NCBI GenBank assembly: GCA_012845835.1
Contig: JABAKD010000010.1
Span: 11,102,311 to 11,166,310 of the forward strand
Direction: 5' to 3'
Source: Undaria pinnatifida
Lineage: Eukaryota; Sar; Phaeophyceae; Laminariales; Alariaceae
Length of the DNA: 64,000 bases
Part shown: piece after piece, positions 2,001-62,937 of the stretch
Position numbering within the stretch: position 1 is the stretch's first letter
How the letters are laid out: the number at the start of each line of letters is the position of its first letter
Translations under genes and position numbers: made by a program
The notes under the pieces: model-generated
Seen by the model: only the letters and a program-made list of their open reading frames with translations
What the model was told of the DNA's origin: nothing
Database searches by the model: none

Positions 2001-2356
2001 GCGGTACGAGTGGACCCGTGGGACAGCCTGGGCTCACTCAGCCACTCTCTCGGGGACGCCGGACCCGTAGTCGCGGTCGCCTGCCACCCGACACGCCCTG
2101 TGGTCGCCGCCTGTCTATCGGACGGCACCATCAGGCTGTGGGACTACCAGGGAGCGGATGGCAGCGGATCGCGATTTTCTGTTGGCAGCGGCAGCGGCGG
2201 CGGTGGGGGCGGCGGGGGCGGGGGGTGGGGCGCGAACGGCGACTCTTCTGGGATGTTGGGGGGCGGGGATAGCTTTCTCAGCGCCCCAGGGGGGGGTTCG
2301 GCGCCGCCGTCCCCTCAGAGGGGTCGGGGATCGAGCAGGACGGGCAAGGAGGAGAA
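2001..2356 (+). CDS. Exon 1 (first in window): WD40 blade plus Gly-rich loop
   Basis: Starts after a TTTGTCAG acceptor, phase 0, and ends AA|gtgaga, phase 2. It codes [10 protein letters not shown] followed by a typical blade end, [11 protein letters not shown]; the HP and WD positions match a WD40 repeat. In TWD40-1 I recall an equivalent IACHP blade about 145 residues from the N terminus. A Ser/Gly loop of about 60 residues follows. The next intron (2357-4581) holds the GTT/GGTGTT array and a family A element. Confidence 0.8.
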
Positions 2357-3133
2357 GTGAGAGTTGTTCTCCCTGTGTGGGATGGGTTGTTGCTGCGTTT
2401 TTTCGTGTCGTGTGATGGCGTTTGTGTCTTGGTCTTGTTTTGTCAGGGTTTTTGGTTGCTCCGGCGATGGTGATATTTCTTTCTCGCCGCAGGTCCCATT
2501 TCTTGAGTTGTTTTTGTCGCTGATTTTTTATTTCGTGGACGGTCGGTGGCACCGACGTTCATACTCATTTTGTTTTCCCGCTATCCCCGCTTCGATCGTG
2601 ACCACGCCGAGGCTGGCCTCTGCCTGTTTTCTTCCGTCAGCCCATGTCAATGTTTCGGGCAAACCCGAGCTTCCAAAAAAATGCACCGCGCCCAAACATA
2701 CACATGGACCCTCTCTGTCGAGATGGCTGAAGCCTCTGTTTCGGTCCGCCGCCGACCGAACTTTTATATTCTTCCACTCTGTCCCGAGATATAAGCAGCT
2801 TTGGACATTAGTATTGAAACAAAAACGTTGCCTGTATTTACGGACAGCGTGGTATACGATTCGCCATTTACTCAACCAATGCGCACAAGTTGACCGCAGC
2901 TAAAAAAAAAAACTGCTTCGGGAATTCGTTCCTGGCGACAGCTACTCAGTATTCTTGACGACAGCTACGAATACCCTGCTGCGGGAGTTCCTACAGTAGG
3001 CCGGGGCTACGGTAGGGGAGTCACTGTTGGTTGTTATTGGTGTTGGTGTTGGTGTTGGTGTTGGTGTTGGTGTTGGTGTTGGTGTCGGTGTCGGTGTCGG
3101 TATCGGTGTTGTTGCTGTTGCTGTTGCTGTTGC

Positions 3134-3186
<53 letters not shown>

Positions 3187-6100
3187 CTGTTGCTGTTGCT
3201 GTTGCTGTTGTTGCCGTTGGTGTTTTTGTTGCCGTTGGTGTTGATGTTGGTGTTGGTGTTGGTGTTGGTGGTGTCTGGTGTTGGTTGTTGTCGTTGTGGC
3301 TGTTGTTGTTGATGCTGATGTTGTTGTTGCGCGAGTGACCCCCTTGTTCCTTTGAGGTCTTAAGGTTAAGCGTTCGTGATGTTGTAGTTTTTTGTGGTAT
3401 GAACCGGCAGTAGTAAGGTCTGCTGCGCTGCGCCAAACAAAATAGCCTGTAGTATTTTTGTCAGTGAGGAACGGAGCCGCTCGTGTGGATGGTGGAAACC
3501 CGGTGGTGGAACAAGGAGAATATTATTTGAGGTAGAGAACCGAACCAAGAATAATCTAGCTTTTGTTTCGAGAGAGGAATTTCGGAGGCGTTTTGGTTCA
3601 TAACTCTGTGGTTGAGAGGATTGGCATTGATTGCGTCGGCGGGACAGCACTGGTGGATCGCGTTAGCGGCTGTACCAAGTGGATACAGCACGGGACGGTG
3701 CTGGCAGACAGGCCGAACACGCGAGCAGACAGTCGTGCTGTTGCTGGTAGCTAGCCGGCCGCTGCGAGGCCAGGTATTCGTGATTTCCACTGGTGTGGAT
3801 GGTGAAAACCCGGTAGTGCAAAACGGGGTAAGTCATGACATCCGTACACTTGGTCTATCGTGCTGCGCGAGTTCCGATAATGCTATCATGACAGTTACAA
3901 GTATCCTGCTACGCGAGTTCCTATATAGCGACGAGTCATCCCTCTATAGTGCGGTAGGTGTTGCGCTTTTTGGGGTCAATTTTTTTTTTTTCTGGCCGGT
4001 TTGAGCTAGATTCTCAAAGTGAGGAACTACTGGTTTAGTCTGATATGTGCTTTTAAACGGGGTATTTTTTTTGGGGGGGGGGGCTGTTGATAGCGCGTAT
4101 GACTTGTTGGTCAGATTGCGCGAACGAACGCCTTGGCAGTCATTGTTTCGGGTGGGATATTGAGCTCTGCTCCTCGTGCAGTCATTGTTAATCTTCTGCT
4201 GCACCCCTATCGTGGGATGACTTCGAGACAGCCAGATTATTCTTGACAGCTGCAAATATTCCAGAACTTTTCACGGTTCATGACCCGACCCGCGGGCCGG
4301 GTCATTAGGTTTTTAGACTCTCGCGGATCGGGCCGGGACGTCTCACGGGACGGTTCGGTTCGGGTCAGGAGGTTTTGAAGTCTCACGGGTTGGGTCAGGT
4401 ACGGGCCGGATCACCCTGGCTCGACCCGACCCGACCCGACCCGACCCGCGAGAGCTGATCTGACCCGTAAAAATCCATGAAATATTCCTGCTGCGCGGAT
4501 CCCCAGCGACAGGTATTCTCTCTTATTTTTTGTCACTGTGCTTGTCATATTTTTTCACGGCGTTGTGTGTGCCGGTCGCAGGATTCCCCTCAAGCCCCGC
4601 CTGGAAGGGAAGCTTTCGCGAATCGCGACGCTCTCGGCGCAGGGCACGCCGTGGGTGGTCCCCGCACCGGAAATTCTCGCCGGGGGTTTCCAATCGGTGG
4701 CGTTCCACCCTGCACGGTGAGAGGGGATGGTAGCAGGTTGGGTCGAGAGAGTCCTCGCGTTGCGAATATCACACTGCTTCACTGCATTTTACACCGCACC
4801 ACTGCGTAAACGTGTTATATAAAGGACTCCTTTACTGCGTTTGTGTACGAAGTATCGTTAGCTCCATGTTTAGAAACTATAAAATGTAACATGAACACAT
4901 TACAGATTCTGCTTTGGGAATGTCTACCGCGACAGCTGGCTATGGCGTGAACGGGAGAAAAGAGAGGAGGGAGGGAGGAGGGGGGGGGGAGGGGGGGGGT
5001 GCAGAGATCCCTTTCCTCGTCTTCTCGGATATAAAAAAATGCCGCTTTTTCTTGTTTGCATCTCGTCGGCGTATGGCACTTGAACTGTAACAGAAATCCC
5101 GCTTCATCGGAATGGGTGGCATCGACCCGCCTATCCCACGTATATATGAGTACGACCGAAACGCGAGCTGCTATTTATTATCCGCACGAGAAAATAGGGA
5201 CCCCTTTCGAGTTGCCTGATGCGTCCGCTTACCACTAACACCGCGCAAGTTGACGGCAGTTACGGATACCCTGCTGCGCGAGCTCCTAGCGACAGATCTG
5301 TGCTATCTTATGCGCGCGCCGGGTGACAAATGTCTGTCCCGAGCTTTCCACCGCGTTTTTTCCTTCCTTTTTTGTGTCGTGTCATCCGCACGCCTGCCTG
5401 CACACTGAATGGGCGGCAACCCGACCATGACAGACCCCTGTCTGCTACCCTTGCCTTACGTCAGGGAATGGCTGTGCGCGTGTTCCGCTCCGGGTCTGGT
5501 CGGAGTTTGGAATCTAGAAGGCGTTGTCGGGGGGAGATCGCGGCTGTCAGTGGACGGCGATGCTGGCGAGGGTTCGGGCCCAGGGTAAGCAGTCCTGGTG
5601 TAACAGCAAAAACAATAAAAAACGCCAGCTGTGATGTTCTCCCGATCGTTCGATACTCGACTTTGCAAGCTGCGTAGTGCTATTGAATGTTTTCTTGAGG
5701 TGGGAGGTTTTTTTTCTTTTCTTGGTTTGACGGGTGTTTTTATTTTTTCCGCTTGCCCATGGCTTGCAGATATGTCCGTTGTTTTTGTGCGGGCGCGGCG
5801 TCAACTTTAGATGCCCTGCGACTAAAAACGTGCTAATCAGAGACAACTATTTGTGAGTACGTTTCGGTTTGTTCGTCCCGCTCGGTCTCGAAATGGATGC
5901 GTGGTTAACGTTCAAACGACTGCTGCGTAGTGCTATTGAATGTTTTCTTGAGGTGGGAGGTTTTTTTTCTTTTCTTGGTTTGACGGGTGTTTTTATTTTT
6001 TCCGCTTGCCCATGGCTTGCAGATATGTCCGTTGTTTTTGTGCGGGCGCGGCGTCAACTTTAGATGCCCTGCGACTAAAAACGTGCTAATCAGAGACAAC

Positions 6101-6638
6101 TATTTGTGAGTACGTTTCGGTTTGTTCGTCCCGCTCGGTCTCGAAATGGATGCGTGGTTAACGTTCAAACGACTAAAGCAAGCACCAAATAAGTACGCCC
6201 CCCCCCCCACACCCCGCCTGCTCGCTTCCCCCTTTCTATCCCATTTTTTCGTGTCTGATGCCTGTCCCGGGAAGATCTCACGGATCGCTCACACTGGTTC
6301 GGCCGTTTGCCGCCCGTGTCATAGCGCCGGCTGACAGCGATGCGGCGTTGTCGGGCGCTAACGGTGCGGACCCAGGAAACGCCTCCACGGTTACGGGCGG
6401 GGCTGCGTCCCTCGCACCCCCGGACCAGACTGTGAGTACATGGTGTGATAGCACTCGCAAATCGTGTATTTTGTATACGTACCAGGTACATCGTTTTCTT
6501 TTTGTTGCTGATGTTGGTGATGATGGTGTTGGTGTTGGTGTTGGTGGATGTGGTTGCTGTTGTTGTTGTTGTTGTTGTTCTTGTTCTTGTTCTTGTTGTT
6601 CTTGTTGTTCTTGTTGTTCTTGTTCTTATTGTTGTCGT

Positions 6639-6703
<65 letters not shown>

Positions 6704-9700
6704 TTGCTGTTGTTGTTGCTGTTGTTACTGTTTGCACTGTTGCTGTTGTCGTTGTTCCAACATCGGAATACAACCGAACGTTTCTGCCACTCACCGCAGT
6801 TTCGTGCAGCGTGAGTACCTGTCTGTCGATCCTACGACGGGCGTGATGGTGGCAATAAGAGTGCCGACAGCAGCGCGGTACACACGACGGTTTAACTGAC
6901 CACCAAGACCTTGGCATATGTTGCTCCAGTTTCTGATGTGGAAGAAGCAATCGCCTGACGGGGGGATTCCGAAGCTGTGTCATGGCGGTTCGGGCTGGTC
7001 GCAAAGGTCACTGACACTTGTAGCGATGATTTGTCTCTTTTCCGGCCTAGAAGGCGGTAGTTTGTTTTTTAATGCATTGTCCGGCACCCCAATCTCTCAT
7101 TTTCCTGCCTGCAAGGCGGCACTCGTACCTGCATTAGGACCACGTGCGGCTTGCGCGCGTGTATGGTTTCCTTGGTCTGGCCTACGACCACGGGCTCATG
7201 GAAAGGGTTCATGTTTAGGTCGGTATAATCTGGGTCTTGTGTGGTACCTGTCTTTAACGGTACACGACAGAAATGCGGCGCAACCTGAGATAATGCGGTG
7301 GACCCTAAACCAATAAGCTTCAACACATGTAGAGAATCTATGCAAGCGCAATCTTCTGGCAGTTGAACGCTACAGCAATAACTACTCTGCACGTCGGCTT
7401 GGATACAGAAGGTTCATTCTGCCTGGGCTATGACCACGCCGCTTAACCCCTTCGAGCCCCAAAATACCTCCCTATACTAACCCCAAAACGCCTTCCTATA
7501 CTAATTCCAAGTGATTTGTCCCCAAGAATGGGTTTCCAGCTGTAAAGGCGTTAATAAGACCGAGTTCCATGATCGAATTATTTTGGATCCCACCTCTTCT
7601 CTTGGCACTTTTTTTCTCCAGATGCCTGCCTTTTTTTAATAAGCTATTTAAAAACGTCAGCTGTGAGTTCGATAAATGTATAAGGGCCGATGCATCTTTG
7701 CACCTTTTGTGTCGTAACTCAGATCTGAAGAGACGTAGCAGGCACTCCTATGACTACTGCTTGTGGCACCGCTAATTTTGCGCAAAAAAAAAAACATGAT
7801 GAATGGTGCTGATTGATTGGAATTGCCATTTCGGGTACAGGTTTTACCGTCCCCTGGATCTCACAGCCCCTGTTCACGCTCCGCGGCGCCAGTTCATCGC
7901 TGGCACTGCCGAGGGTGTTGTAGCGGCAGAACCCGAACGAGGAAAACCTTGGCTAGGAATCGCCGTCGTCCCACAAAGATGGAGACGGATAAGCAGAACG
8001 TCGAAAGTAACCAGGACAGTACAGAACAGAACGATGTGGGGGATTTTCTCCCTCAGGTACTGTCCACGTACTTGTCAGAGGTACCTGGTTGCGGTTGTGG
8101 TTGTGTTTGTTTTTGTTGTTTTTTTTGTTTCTTGTTTCCTGCTTGCTTTGTATCGATAGAGAACCACCGTCGTCCCACGATTATAACGAGATGGATATGC
8201 AGAACGTTGAAAGTTAACAAACGACAACACAGAACAGAACCACGTGGAAAGCGATGTACCTCGGGAACTGTGCTGCGTCTCTGGTACGGTACTGTCCTGC
8301 ACCTCTGGTGTAAATACATGGTTGGGGTTTTTGATCGTTTTTTTTTTTTCTCGTGGTTGTTTTGTAGGAGACTGCGATACTAGGCGTCTGTTTCTCCGCG
8401 TCAGCCTGTCTGTGTCGCGGGCAGGCTGGAGGAGTTGCTGGGGTGCTTGTCGACCGTTCGCCTCGAGATCACATCCTTTGCGTTATCACAGCCGTGCGAG
8501 CACATGTGTTTTTTGTGTTTTTTGTCTGCTTTTGTTTTTGTTTTTGTTCACCTCTTGTGTTTTTCTTCTTTTTGTATTTCGAAACGCGCGCACGGAAAGC
8601 AGGCTGCAGTAACCTGCGTGTTCCTCGCCTCGGAACCGATCGTCATGGTGGGACTGTCGGCCGGCGGGGGGGCGGTGGCCAAAACAGGAGGCAAAGCTAG
8701 CACCCAAGGGTAAGAGGGAACCCTATCGATGCACAACGGTGGCTTGTGTTTGTTGTGGTCGCTGATGTAGTACCTTGTACTCCATAGAGCTCGCTTTTGT
8801 CTTGCCAACGTGTTCTATCGTAGCCCCATATAGACACTATCGACTCACAGCAGTAGGTGCGGTTCTCGTTTTCGCCAATGTACTACTACGTAGCGCGTTT
8901 TCCTCTCTCGTATGATACCTCGTGCTCTCGCGCTCGCTGTTTTGGTACTAAGGGCACTACGTAGAGCGCATTTTTCCCCTGTGTTTTGTTTTGTTTTGTC
9001 GTATCCGCCGCGCACCCCCTCTCGGGGTCCTTTAAACACGGGGTAGTTACGAGCTGTAGGTACGTGTTATCTGCAGTCTCTCCGACGCGCGCTACGATAC
9101 AGTGCACCACTTTTTTTCTGACGTTTCCTCAGTTTGGGAGCTTAACCCCTTTAGAGCCCCCGAACCCCTCCCTATGCTAAATCCAAGTAATTTTGTCCCC
9201 AAAAACGGGTTTCCAGTTGTAAAGGGGTTAAGACCTCCCCCAAACACTGTTCTGTCCAATAGATAAAACTGCTACCGGATGAAAAATCCCCTAGGTACAC
9301 GACGAGAATCATTGCAAAAAAAAACTATTTTCCGACGATTTTGGGTTAAGGAGCCCCGTCTTTCAGAAACCAGGTACACGACGAGGGTCATTGCGAAAAA
9401 AACCCAACTATTGTCCGACGTTTTTGGTTTAAGAAGCCCCGTCTTTCAGAAACCAGGTACACGACGAGGGTCATTGCGAAAAAAACCCAACTATTGTCCG
9501 ACGTTTTTGGTTTAAGAAGCCACGTCTTTCAGAAACCAGGTACACGACGATGAAGAATCATGCAAAAAAATGGCCTATTATTTTTTTATTTTCCGACGAT
9601 TTTGGGTTAAGGAGCCCCGTCTTACAGAAAACATTTCACACGAGAACGGCTACCTCGATCGTAGCCCGAGACCTCCACGCTCTCTGACGAAACCGAAGGT

Positions 9701-12700
9701 TGCGGTGGTAAGTCCAGAGGTCCGCCTGATTTTTTCGGAGGCTCAAATTGCTTGAGAAGCTCCAGACCCCACCCGCGACTCGGATAGTGCTCGCTCCGTC
9801 CGATAGTGAGCAATCGAAATGGGCTACTGTAGGTGTACAGGAACGTTTATATCAGGAAAGATAAATGGGCCCCTTCGAAGATGTTAGATGATTTGTTCAC
9901 TCAGAATTTCTTGGCTCCGAAAGCGCCACATGATGAGCAAACGGAATGGAACCAGGTGTACGGAAACCATACCAGGAAAAGTAAACGGGCCTTCAAAGAT
10001 GTTGGACGGTTGATTTCCTCGGCTGAGGAGTCGGATCACTCAGAAAATATTTCGGCCCAAGAATAACCACCTCTACCGTAGCTCGCATGCAAAGAAGCGC
10101 ATTCGCGTCTGTGAAAAAAACGTTTTGGTGGGTGCTCTGTGCTGTGTGCTGTGTACGCGCGAAGGGGCGCTGCCGTACCGCTTCCTCATCACTGTTCTCG
10201 GCGCCCCTTCCCGCGACTGCTTCGTACACCAACACCCCTCGATGCCCTCGGCCGCCGTCATCTCTATCTCTCTCTCTGTCCTCCCCCCTCTATGGTCATA
10301 AGACGACGGCCATGCGTGCTGTGATTTCACTCTCCCCCGCCCCCAGTATGACCTAAGGACTAAGACCTACCAGGTACAGACTATCGCATTTATTACACTC
10401 CTGTCTCGTTTGTCTCTCTATCCCCCTCTCGCCCCTCCCGCCTTCTCTCTTTGACTTTGACCCTTTTCTGTATATTCCAGCCTCCAGCCTACAAAGGGTG
10501 CCGACCCAACAACGCCCAGCAGCCGCCTCGTGCTGCTGAGCCTTCTCGACGCCACCCTTCCCGTCCTCTACTCCGTGATCGCCCCACACTCTATCGCGGC
10601 CCTGTGCGTCGAGCCGCGCAGCGGTAGAGTCTTCGCGACAAGAGCTGTCGCCGTTGCCTCCACCGACCCGACCAACAGCGCAAATGCTACCACGGGTAGC
10701 GGAAGCACCCGCGCCGGTTGGCCGGCAGGTAAAGGGGCTGGCTCGCCGGCCTCTGGAGGAAGCGACGGTGCTGGCGCCGCGTCGTACGGGTTTGGAGGGT
10801 GGACGGCGGGGGGCGGTGTGGGAGGGGATGGGGGTGAAGGTGGTGGTGGTGGCGGTGTTGACAGTGGTGGGGGAGTGGTGAGCGTGTTGGCCTTGGCTAG
10901 CGGGAGCTTTCTGGATCGTGGTCCTTTGAGGTGAGGGTTCAGGGTTAGGGTTAATACGAGGTCGCCCTAGATTTCGATGCCACGTTTTTTTTTTCTCAAG
11001 TGGAAATGCATTTTGAGCTTCCCCCCCCCCCCCTCCCCCGGGGTTTTCGGCTTTCGTTTCGGGTTGTTTTCCAACAGCTTGCCGAGGACCCCTACTACTG
11101 CCGCTTTTCTTTCAGTGAGGATGCCTCTGTAGCAATTGTTTTAAGCGCGTTGTGACCTGCTGTCGCAGCTTGCCGGGGATCCCTATTCGTACTGCCCCTT
11201 CTTCCTTCCCCCCCCCCCCCCGGCTCCCCACCCCTCTTGTCTTCTTTGCAAGGTGTTCAACGAAAACCATCGTACCTGGTACCGGTATATATCTATTGTC
11301 ATTCGCGCTTTTCGGCTTGTTTTCGCCGCTTGCCGGTGACCTCTGCGTGCATGCCCCCGCATCGCTTCTCTTCTGGTCTCATGCCTTTTGTCTTTCCTTG
11401 CAGGGTGTTTACCCTCGTAGCAATGTTTTTTCGCGTTTGGGCACCCTCACAGCAATTGTCCCTCGCGTTTCGGCTTGCTCTCGCCGGTTGCCGAGGACCC
11501 CTGCTCCCCCCCGCACCGTTTTCTCCCCCGCCCCCTCCCAACGCCTTTTGTGCTGCGTGCAGGGTGCTCAACACTACAATGGAAGTACCGCCAACAGTTT
11601 TCTTGGAAGGCGTTATGGGAGGGCCGAGATCCCGGGACAGCGGGCGGGGTCAGAAGCAACAGCAAGAGCAACAACCTTTGATATCGCTTCCTCTTCAGGC
11701 GAGTCTTGGGGTCGTTCCCCCTGCGGATAGCGCTCGTTTTTTTTGTTTGTCTTTTGCTGTGTGACTGACAGCGTTTTGCATTGTTACTGCCGTCGGCGCC
11801 AAGGACTTCGAGGAGGTCATGAGCCGGCCCGAGGAGGTCATGACCCGGCCCGCGGGTCGGACCTGGAGTTGTTGAAAATGTTACGGATCGAGTCGGGTCG
11901 GGCCCGGAGGTGTTGGTCATGTTACGGGTCGACTGGGGTCGAGTGGGGATGGGGTTACTCTGACCCGACCCGACCCGCGAGAAGGGATCCGACCCGTGAG
12001 AGTCCCCGAGTAATTCCGGGGGACCTTAAAAAAATCAGAACCCTCGATATAGCGATATATTAAAAAAGCCAATGCAGTAGACTAGTCTGTACTGTAGGCC
12101 TATCCCTATCAATCGACAAGGGAAGTGTCGTTCCGCTCGTGTGCTCCGTTATAGTAGTCGCGGAGCTATGCACGTGAGACGCTTGATACCTCGAGAGTGA
12201 TCCGTCACTGCGTCGTCCGATCCTTGTTGTCCAACCGTCGGTAGGACCCCCCCCACCCCCCCCCAGCATCATTCGTACAAGTTTTTAATTCGCCGGTTTT
12301 TGAAAAAAAATGAAATTTTGAAGAAATATGTTGCATTCTTCTGTTTTTGCTACGCCACATTTGGTCCTATGTATTATTTATTTAATTTACGCTGTAGCTG
12401 TGTAACAAGGGTTCACTGCATCTGCTCTTTCTTTGCTCAACAAACGCCTGTGTTTTGCGCGCGACTACGTGGTAAAGCCCGGGGGCATGTGACGGCCGCG
12501 CTCCGAGGCGAAGACGTCTTCAAATTACTGATCTCGAAATTAACTGAAACAATGTATGCAAGCGGTGTCTTTATATTGGCATATCACTACACCAGCAAGC
12601 GAAGTTTACGTGTTATGGTCGTAGCAAAACTCGTAATCTCGCCGCCCTTTTATTTTATACAAATATTTCAAAGACGTCAGCCGTGAGTTCGACGAATTTC

Positions 12701-13592
12701 GGGTCAATACAAAGCGGTGTCTTTATATTGGCGTATCACTACACCAGCAAGCGAAGTTTACGTGTTATGGTCGTAGCAAAACTCGTAAATCTCGCCGCCC
12801 TTTTATTTGTACTCCAATGCTAAGAAAACGATACCCAAGTGTGCTCATGAGTAGTTCAGTTCACACCAATCGGATACGTGTGGGTCTCGAAGTCCATACT
12901 CCAACACGCCCCCTTGATGATAAATCAGTGGCTAGAGGAGTATTTACCAGAGCTTTTCACGGGTCAGGTCAGTTCTCGCGGGTCGGATCAGGTCGGGGTG
13001 ATCAGACCCGACCTGATCCAACCCGTGAGACTTCGAAACCTCCTGACTCGAACCGAACCGTCCCGTCAGATCTCCCGACCCGACCCGACTCAACTCGCAT
13101 GTTTAGAAACCTACTGACCCGGCTCGCGGGTCGGGTTATGACCCGTGAAAAGCCCTGGTATTTTACCCCATATCACACCAAGATTACACACCCTAGCACC
13201 CCTCAGACGGTTTTGGAGGAGGCTTTTCTCGACAGCGGGGACAGTGCGAACGCCGATCGACGCGTCTACGGAAAAAATCTTGACGAAATGACCTCCCAAA
13301 GCCGCCATTTTCGGTTGGTTTTGTGTCTCCCTGGTTTTAGAGAATAAAATTGGCTCTGAAAATCGTCCAAGGGTGGTGTGTCATCCCATTTCCAACTGTT
13401 ATCCTAATTTAGCTCCGAGTGTTTTTGTCCTCATGTCGGGACTGCGGTGCTAAAAGGGTTGAACACTTGTCACATATATACGGTCACCCGTTTAGTGCTG
13501 AAAAAAATGACCCCCAAGTTTTATTTTCAACCAGTTTTATCACCCGTTCAGTGCTGAAAAAATGACCTCCAAGTTTTATTTTCAAGCAGTTT

Positions 13593-13626
<34 letters not shown>

Positions 13627-16600
13627 AATGTGGGTGCAGTGCTGATGTTGGAACTTGCTGAAAAAGGGCGAATGAAATTGAACCCCAGGTGCGTTTGGTT
13701 TAGCCGCCTTCGCCGCGCCTTTTTTTTAACCAGGAATGTACGCTACATGTATGTACGCTACCGGTTGACGGTAACACAAAAAGGAAACTGGATTCTTGGG
13801 GTGGGTAACAACATTTCTTTCGGTAACACAATGTGGCATGGTGTCCCCTAAACGGGAAAAGTCGCCACTTACGTTTGGAAACCCTCTCAGATTGAACGTC
13901 CCCTGCGGTAAAAGCCACAGCAGCGGATCAACGATTCATTTTTGCGGTAAACCGTGGTAACCAAAAGCAGATGTGCAAATTTTCCTGTGTTACCGGTAAC
14001 GTTTGTCACAACTTTGGGGTAACGTAAATCCCTCTGCCTTTTTGCTCCGTCGAACAGATTTACTTCCTGCGAAGCATGGCCGTTTTGATCCAGGCAGGCC
14101 CTGGGGGTGGCGTGGATGTCCCGGCCGTGAAAGCGGTGCTTCATGCGCAGACACTGGAGAGGTGATATCTACTGTACTTTGAAATGGGGGTAGTTTTGGT
14201 AGGCTACCGTCGTAAATCCTGCAGTCTCGTGAGTTAAGAGTAGTACTTTCAAGGCTGTGCGTTGGCTGGAACAAACAGCCGGATAAGAATTGGGTGGCAG
14301 GGTAGAGGGCAACAAGGCGGGCTAAACTGGGAAGCCATCTAACTGGCTTGCGAGGCCTTCGTCAAATTGACGGTGACTTACGATTACCCTAGTGACTTAC
14401 TATTACTGTAGTCAGTTAAGCCATAGCCCTAGTGATGACCCTACCCCCCCCCCCCACCCACCCCCCCCCGGCCCGGTCGGAGTACGCCTCGCCCGCGCTG
14501 TGATGGACTTCCGACTGTCCAACGTGGGAATTATTATGGAAGTGCTGGAAATGTCTATCTCGAGCCTATCGAATCACTTACCTTAGCAAACCCTAACCCT
14601 TAAAAATACTTGAATGTTTTTTTCAAAACTTTTTGTAAGAGATTTGTGAGAATTGTTTTGAATACGATTATGGTACGGTATTCCCGCAGCAGGTAGACCT
14701 CGTTTTTGGAATGGAGGTGTGGAGACAAGCCGAGGTGGGCTGTACGCGTAACCGCATGCTCGAGGGTCGGCAACGAGGGAACACCTCAGAGTGCCCTCGA
14801 GGAGCCAGGATGGCCTTGAAGGATTGTAGTGACAACGAGGCGGTACGGTCTAGGGGATAGGGCCTGGTATCCACATCACCCCTCCCCCTTTTCGGACGTA
14901 CAGACGTGCGTGTCTTGTAAGAGGTGTCGATTTGGGATGACAGGATCCTAGGAATCCCCTGGAATGCGGCGATGATCACTGTTGTCTCAGCAGAACCCGA
15001 AACTCGATTAAAACGATGTGGATACCAGGCCCTATCCCCTAGATCGTACCGCCTCGTTGTCACTACAATCCTTCAAGGCCATCCTGGCTCCTCGAGGCCA
15101 CTCTGAGGTGTTCCTTCGTTGCCGACCCCCGAGCGTGCGGTTACGCGTACGACTCACCTCGGTGTGTCTCCACACCTCCATTCCAAGAACGAGATTTACC
15201 TGCTGTGGGATTACCGTCCCATAAATTGGCGTCTCGGCTAGAATCTCTGTTGGAGCAACGCTGCTGCCATTTCTAACTTTTTAGAGCGGGTGGGTTTTTT
15301 TTAAAAAACCCCGCCCGTTCGTCCCGCATGCCGTGGTGGCCTTTTTACTACGTTTGTCCCGCACCCTGGAACCTGGTATTTTTTTTTTCGTGTTTTTGTG
15401 CTCGTCCCTTCCGTTTTCTTCGCACTTTTCCTTTCTCCTTCTCTCTCTCTAGACGTAGCTGAGACCCGGGGTCACTTACTAAGTAGGCTCTTCTCCCCCC
15501 TCCCCACTACGGCACGCGCCTTCATTTTCATCGCGGAAGTACTCCAGCTATGTCTTGTCTCGTCGACTCGCATCAAATTGCGTGTACTTGTGTTTGCCAT
15601 TGTATAATGGGGGTTGCCATAGAACCGTTATTTCTATCCTTCGCAAAATCTGCACACCCAGTGCCCTTCCTGGTTCTTCGTCCGAGAGGAGTACCTGGTA
15701 CCCCTGGCACCAACTACGCGTGCATGTTGTGGTGTTTCCCTTTTATGTTGGCGTGTCTTTTCTGAAGGGACAAAGGGTTGAAGGACAGAAGCAAGCCGAG
15801 GCGGTTGGCTTCTCTTCCTGGCCACACCGGCGATCTGCTACGACACGTCGGCGACGAAGAGGTGGATAGCGGAGCGATGTGTTTTTTTGTGTTCGTTTTT
15901 TTGCGTGTTTTTGTCACGGCGGCGTTGGATCGCAAAGGGCTACTCGTATACGAAGTATGTGTTAAGGCTTTGGACGCGTACACATGGCGTTGGTAACCAG
16001 GTGCAGGCGTGTGTCCCAAGGTGCAACACTCCGTAGATACGGTTGAATACCACTTGTAATTTTGCGGAGCCAGATCAAGGCGCGTACTACGACAGAGGTT
16101 GCATTTTTTCGCCGAAATATTTTCTGAATTTGGGGACTCCTCAAAAACCCATTGTCGCTGGAATGTCGTTTTTTTTCCGTTTTTTTTTCTCGTTTCGTAC
16201 TGAAGAAATGAGATTTTTCATGGGGTTGCGCTTTCATTTTTTCCCCCCCTTGTTTTTTCTTTTTTTTTCTTTTTTTTTTCAAGTTAGAGCCTAAAAAACA
16301 ATCGGTGCGTCTCTACCGAACCGTGCCATGCTGCTGTTTTTGCCGCCCCAAGTGTGCTATCTTGAGCTACAACACTATGCTTAACTACTTGTGTGGTAGA
16401 GCGGTGAGGTGTCTGCTACCCCCGCCCCGTCCCTTCACTCTGTATTTTCACGACTCGCCCTTATCCGTATATTTGCGTCGTTTTCTGCCCTCTCCCCCCC
16501 CCCCCCTCCCCGCGCGCGCGCACGCCTTCCCCTCCTACTCCTGCCTCGCCACCTCCCTATTGTGCCTCGTCACCATCGTCCACCCACACCGCCAAACTGG

Positions 16601-37600: not shown

Positions 37601-38688
37601 ATCCTCTCCTTAGGGCGACGAGTTGCTTTTGCCATAGCCTGTCAAGTATTGTCCTCTTGCTCCCTCGTTCTCAATAGGTGCTATTTACGTAGTACTCTAC
37701 AGTTAGCCGCATCCCACGCCACACGTGCCCCTTCTCGCTTCCTGGCGGTCCCTAACCTGGAGGTCGAAGTGTGACGCTCTTCTCGAAATCATACCGTCTA
37801 ACCGTGTAAAAGTTTGTGTGTTGTGTGTATTTTCTCAACAACAGATCGGTCGTGGGCACGTCTGTCTCGAGTACCCAAAAAGTGCTAAAAGTACTGCTAT
37901 TGAGTACACCCAGGAAGTACTGCGGGTAAAATGCGAATTCATTATTTTTCCGGGCAAGTTTTTTTTGTATGTACAAACAAATGGTCATTGCGTCCCGCAG
38001 TGATAGTAGTCATGTGTCCTTGCGCCATTCCCCTAGGCACTTCCCGGAGGGGAACCTTGTATACATATATATTCCTGTTTTTCACGAACCATACGTATTT
38101 GGTACTGATTACTAGGTTCCTCCATAATACAAGCAGCTACAGTAGTACCAGCATGTGTACAGGGTATATATATATATTTTTTTTTTAACACACATCTACT
38201 TTCCAGCTTCTGGGAAGCCGTGGTCACAGGTGTCGTCCCTTTTTCCCCCCGGTTCTTGCCTTCAATTTTTATCGCGCATAGGGTTCAGCAATCCCATCGC
38301 TCGTCGATTTTTCATCGAGTGCTGCTAACTCACGCTCTCGCACTTTCCGCAATATATACTGGGTACTGGGAATACCGCCAGTACACTGGGAATACTGCCA
38401 GTGTATTATTAGGCTCTTAGGCTTGCAGTACCTCTCTGTGGTTGACGAAGTATATGTGCGGTACATGTCTGGTACATGTAGAGCAGTGAAAAGGCAGTTT
38501 GTAATTGCCATCTCGAGGGCGAGGCCGAGGGGGTTGAAGGGAGGGGCGTTTGCGCCCCTAGGGTACCGCCTTTTGACGAAGGTCAAACCCAAATAGTTTA
38601 TGTTTTCAGCTTATCCGTTTTTGTGTCGTTGGGGACGCCAACAACGTTTTGATCCACGGGCTCATCGGCTCGCAAGAAAATCGTTATT

Positions 38689-38751
<63 letters not shown>

Positions 38752-41700: not shown

Positions 41701-42225
41701 GAGAGCTCGGCGGAAGTCAGGTTGTTTTTGGACGGCCACGCGGTGGGGTCGGGGGTCTGCAGGTTTAACAAAGTGAGCAGAAAAAAGGAAAATATCGTCC
41801 ACGCTCCGACCTTTTTTTTCTTTTTTTTTTTCTTCTCTTATAATCAGGTCAACCTTTTGACGAGGAGTCAAACCAACTAATCGTTAACGCTGTTTTAACA
41901 CTGTATTTCTGTTTGGGGGGAAACACGCTTGCGATTTTCGCCTGGATTATCTTATAGTTGGAATAGAGGTAAGATTGAGGGAAGGTCTTGTCTAAGTACA
42001 TTTTGATTGGTCGACCAAAAGGGTCTGCATTGGCAACTTTTTTTTTTCGTATCATCAATAGCCCTTCTTTTTCCGCTGGATTGTTTTCCTCTAAATCTTC
42101 CTGCGTTTTTTTCCCATGCTGTTTTCAACTACTGTATTGTTTTCTCCAAAAACTCGGCTGCAGCTCTAACAGGGTTATGCGTCAATGGTAAAGCTCAGGC
42201 CACCTACTGCCGAACCAACCAACCC

Positions 42226-42265
<40 letters not shown>

Positions 42266-48200: not shown

Positions 48201-51200
48201 GGAGGAGGAGGAGAAAAAGGAGGAGGAGATGGAGGAGGGGAAGGAGGAGGAGGGGGAGGAGGGGGAGGGCGAGGAGGGAGTTTTTCCGGATACCCTTTCT
48301 CTGCCGCAGCGCTGGCATCGCCGACAAACTCGGAGGTGTCGTCGATCGCGACACCATCTTCGTCTCCGTGGGCAACGTTTGGGGATGATTCGCTCACCAC
48401 GTCTGCGACAGCCACAGCGGCAGCGGCAACGGCGGCAGCGACAACGGCGACAGCGACAACAGCGGCAGCGGAAGCAACGGAAGCGACACAAGCCGGTGCC
48501 GGGAGATACTACACGTCGCAGTGGGGGGAAGGAGGACAACCAACCGGTGAAGGGCAACATGCCACAGGTGGCCAAGACTTGGTTGCACCGATTTCTGCTG
48601 GTGCTCCCGTTCATGGAGCGATAGGAGGCAAAGAAAAGGACGCCACCTTATCGGGGCCGCAAGGAGCGCTGCCAGCAGTAACTCCGGATTCGGAGACGTG
48701 CGAAAATAATCGGCCTACCGAAGAAGCATCAACCACTGAAGGAACGTCACCCGCCATGCCCTTTGACGGAGGTGGCGCTGTTGCGGAATCGAAACGCGCG
48801 ATTTCTGAAGTTCCTGTTGTTGCGTCGGCCGAGAGCCTTCCAGGGAAATCGGCCGCAACGCACATCAAGAACCTGAACGGAGAGGAGACTGCTGCCACGG
48901 ACGAACGGGAGACACCACCGGAGGGTGTCGGCGCCGATGCGAGCATTCAGATGCCGAGCACAGGGCAACTGCCTGCTGATGAACACGAGGACGGTGCTAC
49001 AGCAAAGACCAATAACATAATCACGTGCAACATTCCAGACAACCCCGGCTCGGACCCGGACCGTTTAGGTTCTGATGAAGAGGAGAACCAGGAGGTGCGC
49101 GCACAAGGTTCGGAGCTGTCGAAAATCACGTCTGATGCGGCTGCGGGGAAGCAGACCGCGGCACCTTCTGGACAACCGAACGAACCAGGTGACGAGGAGG
49201 AGGAGGAGGAGGAGAGGGAGGGGGAGGGGGAGGGGGAGGAGAAGGAGGAAGAGGCCGTTTCTAAACCTTTCGAACGCGAGGTGATGCAAGGCGAAGGGAA
49301 AGTGTTGAAAGAAGACAATGTTTTGCAAGAGGAGAAGGTGCTTCAAGCGGCTAAGGCGGTGTCGAGTGGTGACGGTGACAGCATCGCGGGAAGCACGCGG
49401 GACAACCGCAGGGACAACGACGGCGCGGCCATGGTTGAGGAGGGCTCTAACTCTACCGCACCCGTGGTTGTGGCAGAGACTGCGGCGGCGCTTTCGACTG
49501 ACGTCTCCGAGAGACAAGCGGCTAATGTCGACTCTGAGAGGCAAGCGGCTAGCGTCGAGTCCGAGAGGCAAGCGATTGGCAGTGTCGACTCCGAGGGACA
49601 GACAGTTAGCGTGGGCTCCGACAAACCAGCGGCCAGCGTCAGCTCCGACAAACAAGTAACTAGCGTCGACTCCGGGGGACAAACGATTAGCGTCGATTCC
49701 GAGGCGTCTGCGGCGTCTTCGGCTGTCTGCTCGGAGAGACACGCTGCTACCGTCGACGGTTCCGAGAGAGAAGAGACTACAAGCGTCAACTCCGAGAGGC
49801 AAGCGACAAACGTCGACACAACCGACGGTGTCGTTGACGACGCCGCTGCATCCGCGCCTTCGTCGACTGCCGCCGCGTCGAGCGCGGGGTCGGCTCAAAG
49901 CGAAGGGTCGACACTGCCAGGCACCCAGGAGACTCACGAGGAGCAGGTTGTTATCGCGCCGGGGGGCACGGTCACGGAGGAAACGGTAACAGATCGCGCG
50001 GTAACGCCGGTGGCGGCGGCGGCGGGCGGCCGCGTAATGGTTCGCGTCGAGGTTGGCGGCCGTGCTGTTGTCTTGGCGGGGCCTAAGTCGGTGTTGTTAG
50101 CGGCGGAGGCGGCGGCGTCGCACGCGAGGTCACCGTTGCTGGGATCGAACCCGAGGTTTCCGACGGCGCCGTCGTCGAGAGGGGACATGACTACGGTTGC
50201 GGTGGTCGATATGTGGAATGGAGGTGCTACGACAAGGTGAGTGGGTTGTCGTAAGGATTATCTTGGGTACGTCTTCAGTTAACCTTTTACTTACCGGTAG
50301 GACTTCATTGCTATGATTGAAAGGCTACGAATTTACTGCGCGTCAGTTGAGCATCGCCTATGGATGCCTTGACTCCGGCGCAAGAAACACGATCCTTGTG
50401 AGTTAAAAAACACCGGGTGCTTGGTAAGTGAAATGGTCAAATGAATGTTTTGCCTGTTTTGTCACATAATGCTGTGTTCGCATTTGTTTTGTTGCGTAGA
50501 ACCGTGCTTGCATACTTCCGGGCGACGCCACACCCCGCGTCATGTTGCTGCTCGCGCTCTCGAGAGCGCATCTTTGCACAAGCAAGAAGCTGTGGCTTGC
50601 ATACCGTTTGCGCCCTGAATGGTTTTGGCGAACTACAGTAATATTTTTTAACTGTCTACCGTTTCCTGCCGGTCTTGCCGTTTGGACGAAATCTGTCCTG
50701 AAGGTACCCGATCACCTGTCTGAGTGCCGTCCTCAGCCCGAGATCGGATGAACAGGTCATCGCCTTGCTTGCGAAAGGCGGAGTCCAGGTGAGGCCTCTG
50801 AACGTGTCTATGCCACAAGTTTTGTACTAATACCGTAGGGGTCCCTCTATAGTGCCGGTTGAGTAGTGCAGGTTGCGAAACAATGCTCATGACATTTTTT
50901 TTTTCAAAGTGTCGTTCCGATGATTTTGGTTTAAGGACCCCCGTCGTTCATACAGTACTGTAGCCAGAAGTGCTATACATTTGTTGCAGCACGTCTTCCA
51001 GCGTTTTGAGCTATTAGACACTTTTGCAGCGTGCTTTTGACCCATTTTATAAAGAAATATTCTAACAACGTCGGCTGTGAGTTCGACAAATTTAAGGTCG
51101 ATAGGTACTCATCTTTGCAAGCTGCGTGATACCACCGGTTCCCCGTTTTTTGCATGTTTTTCATGAGTTCAAAACCTGATCAATAGTAAATAGCATTTTC

Positions 51201-54200
51201 TTTATTTGCTATGTACGACTTCGCGGTCTTTCGAGGCAGCCGATTAGATCCCACGTCTCCTCGTGTTTTTGGTTGTGGATGTACACGGGTCCCCCGCCCC
51301 ATAAAAGCTCCAAGGTTGAACAGGCAATCCTTCCTTTGTTTTGGCGTTGCGAAGAACTTGTGACAGCATACGTGGGGCTCCCACTCTGTGGCAGTGCTTC
51401 TTTGCCGCTACTGGAGCTGGGGTAAAATACAGCATTTAGCATTTATAACATTTTTTCTTTTTCAGGACATGGTGGGATATATAATGTAGTTCGTTTACGT
51501 ACGTGGTTGATCGCAGGTTTGCTAGGGACTGCGACCTGTTTTCCTAAGAGTATAGCTTGTTAATCGGTAGCAAGAAGAAAGACGAAACGTCTAATAAGTA
51601 CATCGCGGGGTCTCCCAGTGAAGAAGTCGGAGTAACGCGGTATCCCGGCACAATGCGCTCGAAATTGTTCAACACGACGGGGAAATTGCACTCATAACGT
51701 GGGATTAATAGGAAAAGCTTTCCCCAATAAGGCGGTAGTAATGCTCTGGCACACCTACGGTGGTGATACATGTATTTTCGATGTTGCAAGACGGCTGAGC
51801 GTGCCGTGGTTAGTCCTGCGAGGCAACAACGTTGCCGTTTGTACGCTTGAGATGTGCTGGCCTATATGTTCCGTACACATAGTTCGCCTTCGCCCTTTCA
51901 TTCTCCGTCCCCTCGTCCCTTAGCTGCTGCCAACAAACGTGGCGCGTTGTCCACTGTCTGCGCCATCTGAAGCAGCTGTCCTCAAAAATAACGCGCGGTC
52001 AATTTTATGCACGGTCGGTCTCCCTGCTTCGGCATGCCAACAGTGTTCGCGCTTTTCTCCTGCGCGCTTTCCTGTGTAGCCTCTTTAATTTTGGATCCTA
52101 AGAATCCTCGGTCAACGCGCTGTCCGTGCTCGATCTGACTGCTTCGGCACGCCCATAATGCCCGTGCGTTCTCCTGCGCGCTTTGCTATATAAACATCCT
52201 CCCTGCTCTTTTTCACCCTTAAAGGTGTTCAGCGTCACCCAAAGGGTTCGCCGACGGCACGAGGTGATCGAGGGCTCCGATGTTCGATTCTGGAAGTGGA
52301 TGTCGGACGATGTCATCGCCATCGTCACCAAAACCGTGAGTGCTTTTGCGCTGCTGCGACGGCGGGATGCACGCTACGGTAGATATACCACTTTTTTTAT
52401 TCTTCTTCTGGGAATCCTCGCTTAAGAATCGCTCCACACGACACCAAAAACTGATTTTGGAGGAGAGAAAAAAAAGTCCTACCCGATGAACAGTCGATCC
52501 CATTGCCCAGGTATGCAACCAAACATTTTGCAAATCAAGAATGAAATTCTGGCGATTTTGGGTTAACGCCGTTACCACTGGAAGCCCTTTTCGGGGACAA
52601 TTTTACTTGAAAATAATATACCGGGTATGTTGGGGCTCTAAAGGGGTTAAGGCGCCCCGTCACTCAGAAACCGTTTCAGCCAAAAAAAGGTATACCTCTA
52701 TCGTAGCACGCGTCGCGGTCAGTAGCTGCTCCAAACATCGGCACAAGGATTGTTGACTACCCCCAGGCACCATGAACTTTTTTTATGTGTTCTACGGATG
52801 GACCCAAAACCGGTATATGCGAAGGAAAAGCGTACTGCGTGCCCACCACGCTACTTCTCGTACAGACACGCTTGAAAATATTGAAATGTTTTTTTTTTGG
52901 GGGGTCGCTATACGACTATAACCAAGAAATAATCAACTTCAACGCCCAAAACAGTTAACCCTTTTAGAACTGCAAAATATAGTCCACACTAATTCCAAGT
53001 AGTTTGTTCCCAAAGTAAAACGTGTGCGGCTCTAAAGCTAAGCCACCCCCCCCCCCCCCCCCCGCCGTCTCTGCTATTGTAACAATAATTGGAAAACCAA
53101 ACCTTCTAAGCTTATGCTGCGCTTGCGTGCCTCTTTTAGGTAAAACGTGTGCAGCTCTAAAGCTAAGCCACCCCCCCCCGCCGTCTCTGCTATTGTAACA
53201 ATAATTGGAAAACCAAAACTTCCAACGTTATGCTGCGCTTGCGTGCGTCTTTTCAGGCGGTGCTCAGCTGGGACGTGCGGGGGAAATCAATGCCGAAGAC
53301 TTTGTTCAAGCGACGCCGAGCGTACGATTCGTCGACAGTCCCTTCTAACCGCGTTTGCGCATACAACGCTTCGTCAGACGGCAGGTGACTGGCTGCCTGC
53401 CCCTCCATCCCTTCATTTTGCATCGCGTGGCTCATATTCCGCAATATATATTGTCAGGGTTTATTATCTCTGGTGAACCTTTGTGACAATATCTAAATTT
53501 TACACCAAAACGAGAAGGAAAAACACACGGAGTTTTTTTTTTTCTGGGTAGCTTTTTTTTCAGATCTTTTACGTCTTGCGGGTTTGACTCCCGTACGGGG
53601 AGGAGGCGCTTCCCGAACCCGCGCGTACTCGTTGCGTGATCTTAACCCTTGCTGTAGAACGGCAAAAAATATCCCCCACTATTATACTGTAGTTCCCAAG
53701 TCTTTTCTGCCCGCCAAAAATGTGGGTACAGCTGTAAAGAGGTGAATTTCGTCTCCGATAAGTGTTAATTTTTTTTCAATGTTGTTTTTGCCCCGTCCCA
53801 TTTTTGATTGTGTTGGCACTTTTTCTTTCTCCTTCTTCTCCCTCCTTAGCCGTAACTCAGATCCAGAAGTCATTAAGCAGGGTTTTCTCCCTTCCTCCCC
53901 ACTACGGCACGCGCCTTCATTTCTATTCGCGAGAAGACGTAAGACCTTTTTCTTCCCTCGTCGACTCGCATCGAGTTGTATACAGTATGTAGGGTCCCCG
54001 TTGAAGCGAGTACAGGAAAACTTGTTTGAGCGGAGTATAGCCTGTTTGTACAGTTTTTTCGTCCTCGCATTCGGACGATGGACGCGTGAAGCACCCCATG
54101 TGGTAGTTATCATAGTGAAATGTCCATGCCTTAGTTTGTTGTAAAAATGTTCACGTATCAGGTGTGTTGTATAGATTTTTATTTCTTATTCTATTGCTTT

Positions 54201-57200
54201 CGAAGGGGGGCGTCCGAGCGATCGGTAACTATGCTGTAAAGGCCGATGCGGGCGATAGGACGGACCGTGGCGTGTACCGATTGGCGCGGCTGCGGGGCCC
54301 TGTGGTATGCTCCGAGGACTTCCACTCGTAGGCTCGGAGTGCGTTCGTCCACAACGCAATGGTTCGTTCGCTAGCACACGAAGAAGTGCCATGCTATCGG
54401 CCATGGACCTTCCCGTCCAGCTTTCAAGAATCACTAGGAACGCAATCAGGGAAAGCGGAACTCCCTGAAAAATTGTATCCAACCATTCTATATGCGGTAA
54501 CATGCCCAATGATACGACCACAGCGGTACAGGCTGTTCAGGCTGCCGGCTCCGGCAGCGTAGAGCAGTCCCCACTCTTGCACCTTGTGCTCTTGCCCCTC
54601 CGAGAAAACGCGGAGTCGCTGCTCACGCTGCACGATAGGCTCACATAAGTCGCGCTCGGGCTTAGTTGATGGCGTGGGGGGTTATCGTGCATGGTGGTCA
54701 TCAGGCGAGCAAAGCGAGTCAAAAATTCAATCCCCTCCCCGCGTATACCATTCGCCCTCGTATTCGTACAATGCCGCGTCGGGGCGCGTCGAGGTTTCGC
54801 CCACCAGGCACAAATTTCTTGCACCAAGCGCGAAGCACCGCGAGGTGTTCAGCGACTGGCGTGAAGGGGCCAGTTAGCTTGCATCCTAAGAACCGCTTGT
54901 AAGGCGGGCACTTTCTAGCACACGAATGATAGCGTCAAACGCCTTGATTTGTTTTTCGGTGTGGCCATTTCCAGAAACAGCTAGGGGTAGTACTGTGCAG
55001 CTGCCCCACAGGGAGGAGGGGTCTCTCTGTCTTCTGCTGTGTTTGTGCGTGTGCTTGTCTGTCTCGTCTGTCGGCCCGCATGGCGTTCACTCGTTTTCGT
55101 TGGGGACTCTTATCGCTGACTCGTGCTGGTCGGTGAACACAGGTGGGGTCTGCTGGCCGTGGCCGATAGCGAGCGGCTGTGCGATGGTTGCAAGGGCGAC
55201 GCTGGCGTGGAGGGGGGCTGCACTTGTCAGGTGACGAGGGGCTTGAAAAATTATTACGGCTGTGAATAAGCCGAACGTGACGGCCACGATAGAGGTGCAC
55301 CACGATTTTTTCTTAATACTACCCCTCGCTTTAGGAGGCTTAAGACATGTCCTGCTTAGCCCCAAAAAAAATTGTTTGGAAAAAAAAGAAAACCTGCTTT
55401 ATCGCGGATGAAACATCCCGTGGCCTAGGTATACGACGAAAAATCATGCAAAAAAAAAAAAATGTTCCGACGGTTTCGAGTCAAGGAGCCCCGTCATTCA
55501 GAAAACATTTTTTTCAATCGAAAAGTGCCACCTCAATCGTAGCACGTTTCCCGACTCTTTTATGTGTAGACGCGTGCTAAGATAGAGGTGCACCACGTTC
55601 TTCTCTTAATACTACCCCTCACTTTAGGAGGCTTAAGACATGTCCTTTTTAACCCCAAAAAAAATGATTTGGGAAAAAAAGAAAACCTGCTTTACCGCGG
55701 ATGAAACATCTCGTGGCCTTGAGGTACAAGTATACAACAAGAACCATGAAAAAAAATGGCCTATTATTATTTTTTTTTCCGACGGTTTTGGGTGAAGGAG
55801 CCTCGTCATTCAGAAAATATTTCGCCAAAAAGAGGTACCTTTCTGCCAAAAAGAGGTATACCTTAATACCTCTATCGTAGCACGATTATATTGTCAACAT
55901 GTTACCAAGGCTATGGTGGGGGGGGGGTGTTACAAGTAATATCCCCGTTTTTTCACTGCTGAACGTGAGCCAGTCGCACGAGTGAGTCTGTACCTCACTG
56001 GACGAAGATACTTTAGGCGATTGGCTTGGCGCTGGCGTAGCCAACCGTTCCATGTCGGATTCATGTCTCAAAAAACAATATTAAAAACAGTACGAAAGTT
56101 TAAACAAGATCGCGAAGGAAGGGGCGGGAGGGGGGGGGATCGCTCGCGCGAGTGACTCCAAGCCAATGCAAAGCAAAAGTCCCCAAACCCAAACCGTAGC
56201 CTTGGTCAGTTTTGTTTTCTCTTTCTCGATGTTTAATGCTCTGCGAGCCACAAAATAAACGGGCAGAACTTAGGGAATTACCGCGAGGAACTTGCTGTAA
56301 TTTTTAGCCAAGTACGGGTAAAATACATAATTCGACGACTTAGTGCACGCCAACCCACTGTCCTACGGGCAAACTTGGTAAATTACCGCATGGAACTTGC
56401 TCTATACTTGCTGTAAGTCCTAGCCAAGTACGGGTAAAATGCGTATTCAACGACTTAGTGCACGCCAACTCACTGTCCTACATGTTATATGTCTTAGTTT
56501 TTGTCGTGCTCCCGATCTCGGCAAATGCAATGCAACTTGTTATTGTAGTCTCGTAGCCTGCCTTGTTCTTGCGTGGGCTTATACAGCAGGCTTGCCGAAC
56601 AGGGGCGCTCTCTGTATACTCCAGGCGATCTCCCGCAATCAAAACAGGAACAAGTCTGAGTGGGAGTGCAATGTTATCTGGTTAACACGCACTTGTGCTA
56701 TGTACATCTTCGAGCACGTTCTTGCGTCAAAGAGCGCATTTTATTATTTCTGCACCGTCGGCTAAAAGCCGCTGAACGGCCAATTAGCGTTGAGCGCGGA
56801 GAAACAAAAACAAAAACCTACCCTATAGCGATGCTTGGTCCTATAAATATATTGTCTCGAAGGCTCCTTTGTCCTAGCTCATCTCAAACGACGATTTTTC
56901 CTGCCTCTGCTGACATGATTCATGTTCCTACCTCGTCTCAAAACGATTCCTTTTTCTGCCTCACCTCAAGAAACGATGCTTTTTTATGTGCATATCTCGT
57001 TTTTCTCTCCATCTCCGCGACGCATGACGGAAAGACTTCCTTGATGGTAGACCTCCAAAGCTTCGACGAGCCGAACGCCACGCGCTGCTTCCGCGCCCTC
57101 GGCGCCGCCCTCTTGGACGCCCCTACGTCCCTCACTGAAGCTGCTGGTGCTGCGACTACAAAGGCAGCTTCATCTTCCGCCTCCGCCGGCCAAACTTCGA

Positions 57201-58096
57201 CGACAAGTGAGGGCGGAGTTTCTTTGTTTATTTTGTCAGGATTCCTTCTTCCGTGGAGAGGGGCTTTTTTTTTGTATCACATGTGGTCAGGACTTATATT
57301 CCCGTACTACTGTAGAGCGAGACAACTGCGAATATCATAATGCCTTCGATGGGTCGAGTACGTACATGGTGGAATCGTATGGTCTATCGGGGGCCATTCG
57401 TCTTATACGGCACCTTAGCCGGCTTTTCTGTTAGGACCGACTACATCAGTACACGTGCTGCCGAACTCAGAAGCTCGCCAGAAAACTCGTTCATTACACC
57501 CGTCTTCATAGACCTCATGCTGATGCAGTTGTTTCCCTGCGGTTCCGCCCGTACCGCTGGTACAACGGCTGGCGGTGGTGTGGTCCCAAACAATCATCGG
57601 CCTCCTTTTTTCGATAGTTAACGTTTCCGGTCTTCCCACGCCTTCCCGTTATGTGTGTCGTACGTAGACGCGTGGAAGGGAGCACTGCTTGTGGCTGTTG
57701 TTCCTGACGCGGAAAATCCCGGTTCGAACGTGCTTCAGATGCTGCGCCCCGAGGGCGTGATTGGAGGTCACGACGACGACTGCCTGTGCTCGATGGCCGT
57801 ACAGGCAGACCGAAGCCAACCCGCAGGTGGGTTATCTGTATACCGTGGTGCCCCCTTTGTAGCCTTTATAGCGCCGGTTGAGCAGTGCCGGTTGCCCTCT
57901 ACAGTGCCTGTAAAATCGCTTGGCACAGGTGGGAACAACCTGTAGTGGCGGCATGCGGAGTAGTGCCAGTTGCCGTAATAGTGCCGGTGTTTCCGGCCGG
58001 CACACACCAGCACTATAGAGGAATCACTGCTGTATATATATTTGGGTGTTACCGGCGTCATCCTTGTTGTTGTTTTGTTGCTGTTGTTTTTGTTTG

Positions 58097-62937: not shown

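Follow-up and report, generated by a model that had tools for sequence, protein, structure and literature searches.

We have analysed a 64,000-nucleotide stretch of Undaria pinnatifida DNA (hereafter, the window) and propose that it carries most of a gene which, on balance, encodes a TSET-type coat scaffold (probably TTRAY1) followed by a Laminin-G-like domain, a linker and a leg-less clathrin-like propeller, with a proposed role in adaptor binding. TSET and clathrin are otherwise known as separate machines.

The final gene model, which was guided by relatives and to which 6.9 kb of upstream flank was added, lies on the + strand, begins near -5477 (some 5.5 kb ahead of the window), ends with the TAA at 62947-62949 and comprises 45 exons encoding 3,382 residues. 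Forty-one of the 45 exons lie inside the window, in which coding reaches back to 1351, and four lie upstream of it; two modelled exons are doubtful, 34551-34778 (poly-Asp) and the upstream -2299..-2231. A splice and codon model that uses no homology recovers a single + strand gene at 1433-62949 with 36 exons (minus strand score 89 versus 320 for plus before training, and 99 versus 509 once the model had been trained on the + strand gene), and tblastn yields colinear + strand HSPs with proteins of Scytosiphon promiscuus (P0002; 35 HSPs, rising to 38 once the 6.9 kb upstream flank is included), Hapterophycus canaliculatus (P0003; 15) and Pylaiella littoralis (P0004; 37). Together, these two lines of evidence bear out the one-strand, multi-exon gene described in an earlier note on this DNA. 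The note had 39 exons beginning at 2001: strand and order stand, whereas the exon count is now 45 (41 in the window), the start lies upstream and the product has 3,382 rather than 3,082 residues. The end of the frame, previously placed at a donor at 62937, is replaced by the TAA that completes 12 bases further on, and the five relatives that reach the C-terminus (P0002, P0003, P0004, P0007 and P0008) stop within a few residues of it. The order of domains is a WD40-type coat scaffold, the Laminin-G-like domain, a disordered linker and a propeller resembling the clathrin N-terminal domain:

1351..32540, + strand: coat-scaffold part (WD40/propeller plus presumed alpha-solenoid, probably TTRAY1-like), 23 exons in the window; gene models, tblastn
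1351-1501, 2001-2356, 4582-4716, 5465-5584, 6275-6431, 8603-8709, 10481-10930, 11563-11698, 14058-14161, 15768-15861, 17110-17317, 18256-18331, + strand: scaffold exons 1-12 of 23
19104-19146, 20647-20829, 21604-21705, 22257-22394, 22871-23115, 23513-23740, 24584-24736, 27576-27785, 28211-28372, 30112-30484, 32301-32540, + strand: scaffold exons 13-23 of 23
33507..43356, + strand: Laminin-G-like (ConA-like) domain and leader; PF13385 match in a piece of the window
33507-33983, 34284-34430, 34551-34778 (poly-Asp, doubtful), 35015-35194, 35788-35964, 38952-39080, 41638-41772, 43243-43356, + strand: Laminin-G exons
44948..45120, + strand: conserved exon after the Laminin-G-like domain; donor overlaps the in-frame TGA 45122-45124
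45696..45854, + strand: junction exon whose last bases fall within unit 1 of a 35-bp minisatellite; gene models
47627..50236, + strand: giant exon, disordered linker and then propeller start from about 50068; gene models, tblastn, same exon in seven ORF-style predictions of other sources
48075..48092, + strand: WxxFx[DE] motif WSAFGE in the linker; motif scan
48369..48386, + strand: WxxFx[DE] motif WATFGD in the linker; motif scan
50704..50788, + strand: propeller exon; tblastn, guided model
52225..52335, + strand: propeller exon with clathrin signature; PDB matches
53257..53384, + strand: propeller exon; PDB matches
55143..55230, + strand: propeller exon; tblastn of relatives, guided model
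57035..57206, + strand: propeller exon; tblastn of relatives, guided model
57668..57826, + strand: propeller exon; homology-free model, tblastn, guided model
62636..62949, + strand: last exon, propeller end and TAA 62947-62949; tblastn, guided model, ends of relatives

Ten single ORFs gave no meaningful match to Pfam, and Rfam gave 0 matches at the gathering threshold. Several repeats accompany the gene: a perfect 253-base tandem duplication in an intron (5669-6174, 100% identity), either very recent or an assembly artefact; a CCCGA pentamer array of 56 copies (28638-28916, 98%); an 82-bp tandem array of 8.6 copies (39823-40527), to which another copy at 42493-42566 is related; and a dispersed 99-bp intronic repeat at 24345-24443, 41314-41412 and 62394-62492, possibly the remnant of a mobile element.

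Three protein searches returned 15 proteins: three in which the parts are joined, two with the C-part alone, seven ORFs of the linker exon, two with the N-side only and one (P0015) that is the window itself. Since these searches scored only those candidates with the most words in common (7,981, 7,984 and 7,996), absence from them shows little. The six organism-named relatives (P0002-P0005, P0007, P0008) come from five brown algae (Phaeophyceae), four of the Ectocarpales and one of the Laminariales; P0007 comes from Ectocarpus sp. 12 (6 member sequences) and P0008 from Laminaria digitata. P0002 (3304 aa) and P0004 (3252 aa) are similar in layout and length to the window model. P0005 is partial and covers the N-side only, being cut before the Laminin-G part. 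The sole distant relative, P0006 (1822 aa, 37% identity), has the scaffold, the Laminin-G-like domain and a tail, but no propeller, and its model may be truncated.

The N-part of the protein is probably TTRAY1, the known TTRAY proteins being described, in the portion of PMC4031984 consulted, as two N-terminal propellers followed by an alpha-solenoid. One WD40 repeat (PF00400) scores above the Pfam cut-off (7e-7, 30 bits versus 27). The comparisons with TWD40-1, TWD40-2 and alpha-COP used approximate, manually typed reference sequences. Against these typed references, the region from the end of the second propeller through the solenoid favours TWD40-1 in P0006 (z 5.1, versus 0.2 for TWD40-2 and 1.6 for alpha-COP) and P0004 (3.0, versus 1.7 and 0.0), with values of 1.2, 1.1 and 0.2 in P0002 and of 1.4, 2.0 and 0.4 in the window. 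Two hhalign runs with the typed TWD40-1 gave colinear segments (P 0.0014, 0.017 and 0.03; 0.0024), and neither TWD40-2 nor shuffled sequences did better than 0.057. In agreement with such an assignment, reports from the PX clade, which holds the brown algae, cover all six TSET subunits, although no single library of that clade had them all; the one stramenopile library with all six is that of Blastocystis (PMC12167817, as far as the text consulted goes).

We consider it rather doubtful that the N-part is instead some other coat scaffold of the propeller/solenoid type, be it alpha-COP-like, TTRAY2 or unassigned, to which the clathrin-like propeller is joined. Several results do lean that way: coatomer alpha provides the best PDB matches of the N-part, confined to one WD stretch; a profile of five N-parts lists alpha-COP (E 0.0007, set search space) while TWD40-1 is absent, both being typed references; and hhalign ranks the WD repeat of alpha-COP (P 5.2e-5) over that of TWD40-1. 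Furthermore, with the typed references alpha-COP stands above TWD40-1 over the whole N-part, both in P0006 (z 5.7 versus 4.7) and in P0004 (6.7 versus 2.5), a lead that we attribute to the WD repeat, and in the solenoid region of the window itself TWD40-2 scores above TWD40-1. Outside the WD repeat, however, it is TWD40-1 that P0006 and P0004 fit, and the colinear hhalign segments and the reports of TSET subunits from the PX clade also stand against this alternative. A further hhalign run with a three-sequence N-part profile found only one WD stretch in the typed references (probability 18.6), and the AF2 model of P0005, built from 4 sequences, had a pLDDT of 30.3, too low to be of use. The TTRAY1/TWD40-1 label of the earlier note holds as probable only, carried by weak matches to a typed Arabidopsis sequence but not by the other profile and hhalign tests.

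The architecture first proposed had no Laminin-G-like domain; the PF13385 match places one between its two halves. Laminin_G_3 matches at 1.8e-7 (31.8 bits versus a cut-off of 27.6) in a piece of the window without the poly-Asp stretch and exon 43243-43356, and at the corresponding place P0002, P0003, P0004 and P0006 score 18.5 to 21.4 bits, below the cut-off. Since the domain is also found in the distant P0006, it may predate the clathrin-like part.

The linker that follows occupies about 810 residues within one exon of 2,610 bases and is poorly conserved. Six of the seven single ORFs of this exon end at the donor position, while P0014 reads on. Across brown algae, [ND]FA[AST]F motifs are kept in this fast-diverging linker; we know of no function for this motif type. 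The motif WxxFx[DE] occurs 17 times in the linkers against 0.12 in shuffles, a figure that overstates the excess because the sequences are related; WxxF is kept in 11 of the 12 linker sequences and WxxFx[DE] in 9, and the tail of P0006 also has WxxF. According to the part of PMC3794858 consulted, WxxF binds the sandwich subdomain of the AP-2 alpha-ear. Clathrin-box motifs, on the other hand, show no excess in the linkers (1 versus 0.87 in shuffles), so there is little reason to expect the propeller head to bind the linker that tethers it.

A first model of the C-part matched nothing because the signature exon at 52225-52335 was missing from it. With that exon included, all 18 PDB matches of the single sequence are to clathrin heavy chain (best 2.8e-9), as are all 18 of a four-sequence profile (best 3.9e-19, chain residues 30-168); P0007 gives 18 such matches out of 19 (4.7e-11), with the remaining match at E 0.55. 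An hhalign comparison with clathrin covers 136 columns at 30% identity (probability 98.0, typed reference). For the second half of the propeller the similarity to clathrin is not significant (z 1.4, the score being reached by 49 of 500 shuffles); a complete seven-bladed fold is therefore no more than likely. The AF2 model of P0007 from 5 sequences had a pLDDT of 35.2, again too low to be of use. By sequence statistics, then, the relation to the clathrin N-terminal domain is established for CHC residues 30-168 only. Pfam searches, a kind of check suggested earlier, found WD40 and Laminin_G_3 and showed no clathrin family in the C-part. What had been called a clathrin-like chain is borne out by PDB statistics for the first half of the propeller, but the stop directly after the propeller leaves a head without chain or leg. 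With a typed clathrin-leg query, neither the window nor the 9,990 bases downstream gave a significant match (best E 3.7). Searches of the alga's own genome for a canonical clathrin heavy chain with PF00637 and a typed human chain, which had no working positive control, gave no match and so carry no weight for or against such a chain, or a second copy of the present gene, elsewhere in the genome.

We take K96, K98, R64, I80 and T87 to be residues of the clathrin pocket. Residues Q89 and F91 are clathrin-box residues in the portion of PMC5182127 consulted. Q89, F91 and I80 are kept in all five sequences compared (window, P0002, P0003, P0004 and P0007), and K96 and K98 are Arg in all five, so that both positions stay basic. 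It is unlikely, in our view, that the propeller is a structural module of the one polypeptide (a third scaffold propeller or a dimerisation unit) that has lost adaptor-peptide binding: the basic positions and the invariant Q89 and F91 argue against it, even though the second half has diverged, the pocket residues R64 and T87 are changed, the W-box is lost in five sequences (Q152/I154 being R or G, and C or F) and Q192 of the arrestin box is lost as well. Between P0002 and P0004, identity is 63-79% in four propeller alignment blocks (column 3300 on) versus 20-44% in the linker blocks 2400-3200. The higher identity of the propeller suggests a domain under constraint, and fits the adaptor-binding and the structural readings alike.

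The weak point named in the earlier note, the junction at 45854-47627, is real. The in-frame TGA 45122-45124 overlaps the donor of exon 44948-45120, which if unspliced would terminate there. The junction exon is weakly conserved, with z of 1.5 for P0002, 2.5 for P0003 and 2.1 for P0004 (46, 10 and 19 of 500 shuffles, respectively, reaching the observed score). Its donor is provided by the first unit of a 35-bp minisatellite at 45838-45997. It is nevertheless highly probable that one gene encodes one polypeptide from scaffold to propeller. Single annotated proteins of three genera, P0002, P0003 and P0004, span the junction from Laminin-G through linker to propeller, and P0002 and P0004 also contain the scaffold; P0003 and P0004 are labelled partial, and P0003 (1637 aa) begins in the Laminin-G part. 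All of these fused annotations are from Ectocarpales and may share an annotation pipeline. Immediately after the acceptor at 47627, (S)RDPRKA-LAA is kept in the window, P0002 and P0003, with TLDPRKAALAA in P0004. The first in-frame ATG of the giant exon (47919) comes 97 codons after this point, which argues for translation arriving from an exon further upstream. The homology-free model joins the junction at all five start/stop penalty settings, zero included. The codon table it used came from training on the gene found by that same model, and since the three loosest settings cut the gene elsewhere, propeller included, what the model says about the junction carries limited weight.

Two adjacent genes, the first (scaffold and Laminin-G) stopping at TGA 45122-45124 and the second (linker and propeller) starting between there and about 47.9 kb, strike us as quite improbable. 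Such an arrangement is favoured by the TGA at the donor, by the weak junction exon and by the C-part being annotated alone in Ectocarpus (P0007, 375 aa) and Laminaria (P0008, 281 aa), and P0006 carries the first part only. Yet P0007 and P0008 look truncated, since both begin inside the propeller (their first residues correspond to positions 43 and 145 in the propeller segment of Scytosiphon); three of the four Laminin-G-containing proteins returned continue into linker and propeller, P0006 being the one that does not; coding conservation extends as far as the 47627 acceptor, ahead of every in-frame ATG in the exon; and the homology-free model joins the two parts throughout. On orthologue architecture, a check suggested earlier, the fusion first proposed has three annotated proteins from other genera in its favour, and two relatives with the C-part alone and one without a propeller against it. 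Of two further candidates, a generic WD40 propeller for the C-part was rejected since all significant PDB matches are to clathrin, and the idea of a complete clathrin heavy-chain gene extending beyond the window was rejected given the stop at 62947-62949 and the matching ends of five relatives.

Taking the protein as a single polypeptide with a peptide-binding propeller, we tentatively suggest a mechanism in which a leg-less head and a WxxF-bearing linker tie TSET to clathrin adaptors. The N-part would sit in TSET at the membrane, and the conserved WxxF motifs of the linker would bind the appendage of AP-2 alpha. At the end of a tether of about 810 disordered residues, the propeller would use the site that clathrin itself uses to take up clathrin-box peptides from adaptors. 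The protein could either tie TSET to clathrin adaptors or hold the adaptors until real clathrin displaces the propeller. Since it has no leg, the propeller would not itself join the clathrin lattice. It is plausible, then, that this is a hybrid brown-algal subunit, one protein gathering TSET, AP-2 and clathrin-box adaptors, in which a clathrin head is re-used as a lattice-independent adaptor catcher.

To our knowledge, no other clathrin head is used without its leg, and if our reading is correct, this would be the first one known. The covalent link would also show directly which part of clathrin TSET must reach, and would provide a testable handle on TSET-clathrin cooperation in another complex multicellular lineage. 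Plant TSET works together with AP-2 in clathrin-mediated endocytosis, while in Dictyostelium TSET possibly acts without clathrin (PMC12167817, in the part consulted). The earlier note knew of no described protein of such architecture, and we found no published account of such a fusion among the titles and openly available main texts searched, which is no proof of novelty. In the portions consulted of PMC4031984 (2014) and PMC12167817 (2025), no TTRAY is said to have a clathrin or Laminin-G domain, and the main texts of both lack the term laminin; the domain analysis of the 2025 algal survey, in the same portion, concerns TCUP and TSAUCER only (PMC12167817).

Among known systems, the algal protein resembles TSET TTRAY1 and plant TWD40-1 in its propeller-type scaffold and in its weak colinear matches to the typed TWD40-1; it differs in the Laminin-G-like domain, long linker and clathrin-like propeller, which are undescribed for TTRAY1 in the sources consulted. 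With WxxF endocytic accessory proteins such as NECAP 1 it shares WxxF-acidic motifs within a segment of low conservation, but here these candidate binding motifs belong to a protein with a coat scaffold on one side of them and a clathrin-like propeller on the other. Finally, like the N-terminal domain of the clathrin heavy chain, the propeller aligns over residues 30-168 and keeps the clathrin-box residues Q89 and F91. Unlike the heavy chain, it has no linker, leg or trimerisation region of the clathrin kind, has lost the W-box, is unrecognisable by sequence in its second half, and sits at the C-terminus of another protein.
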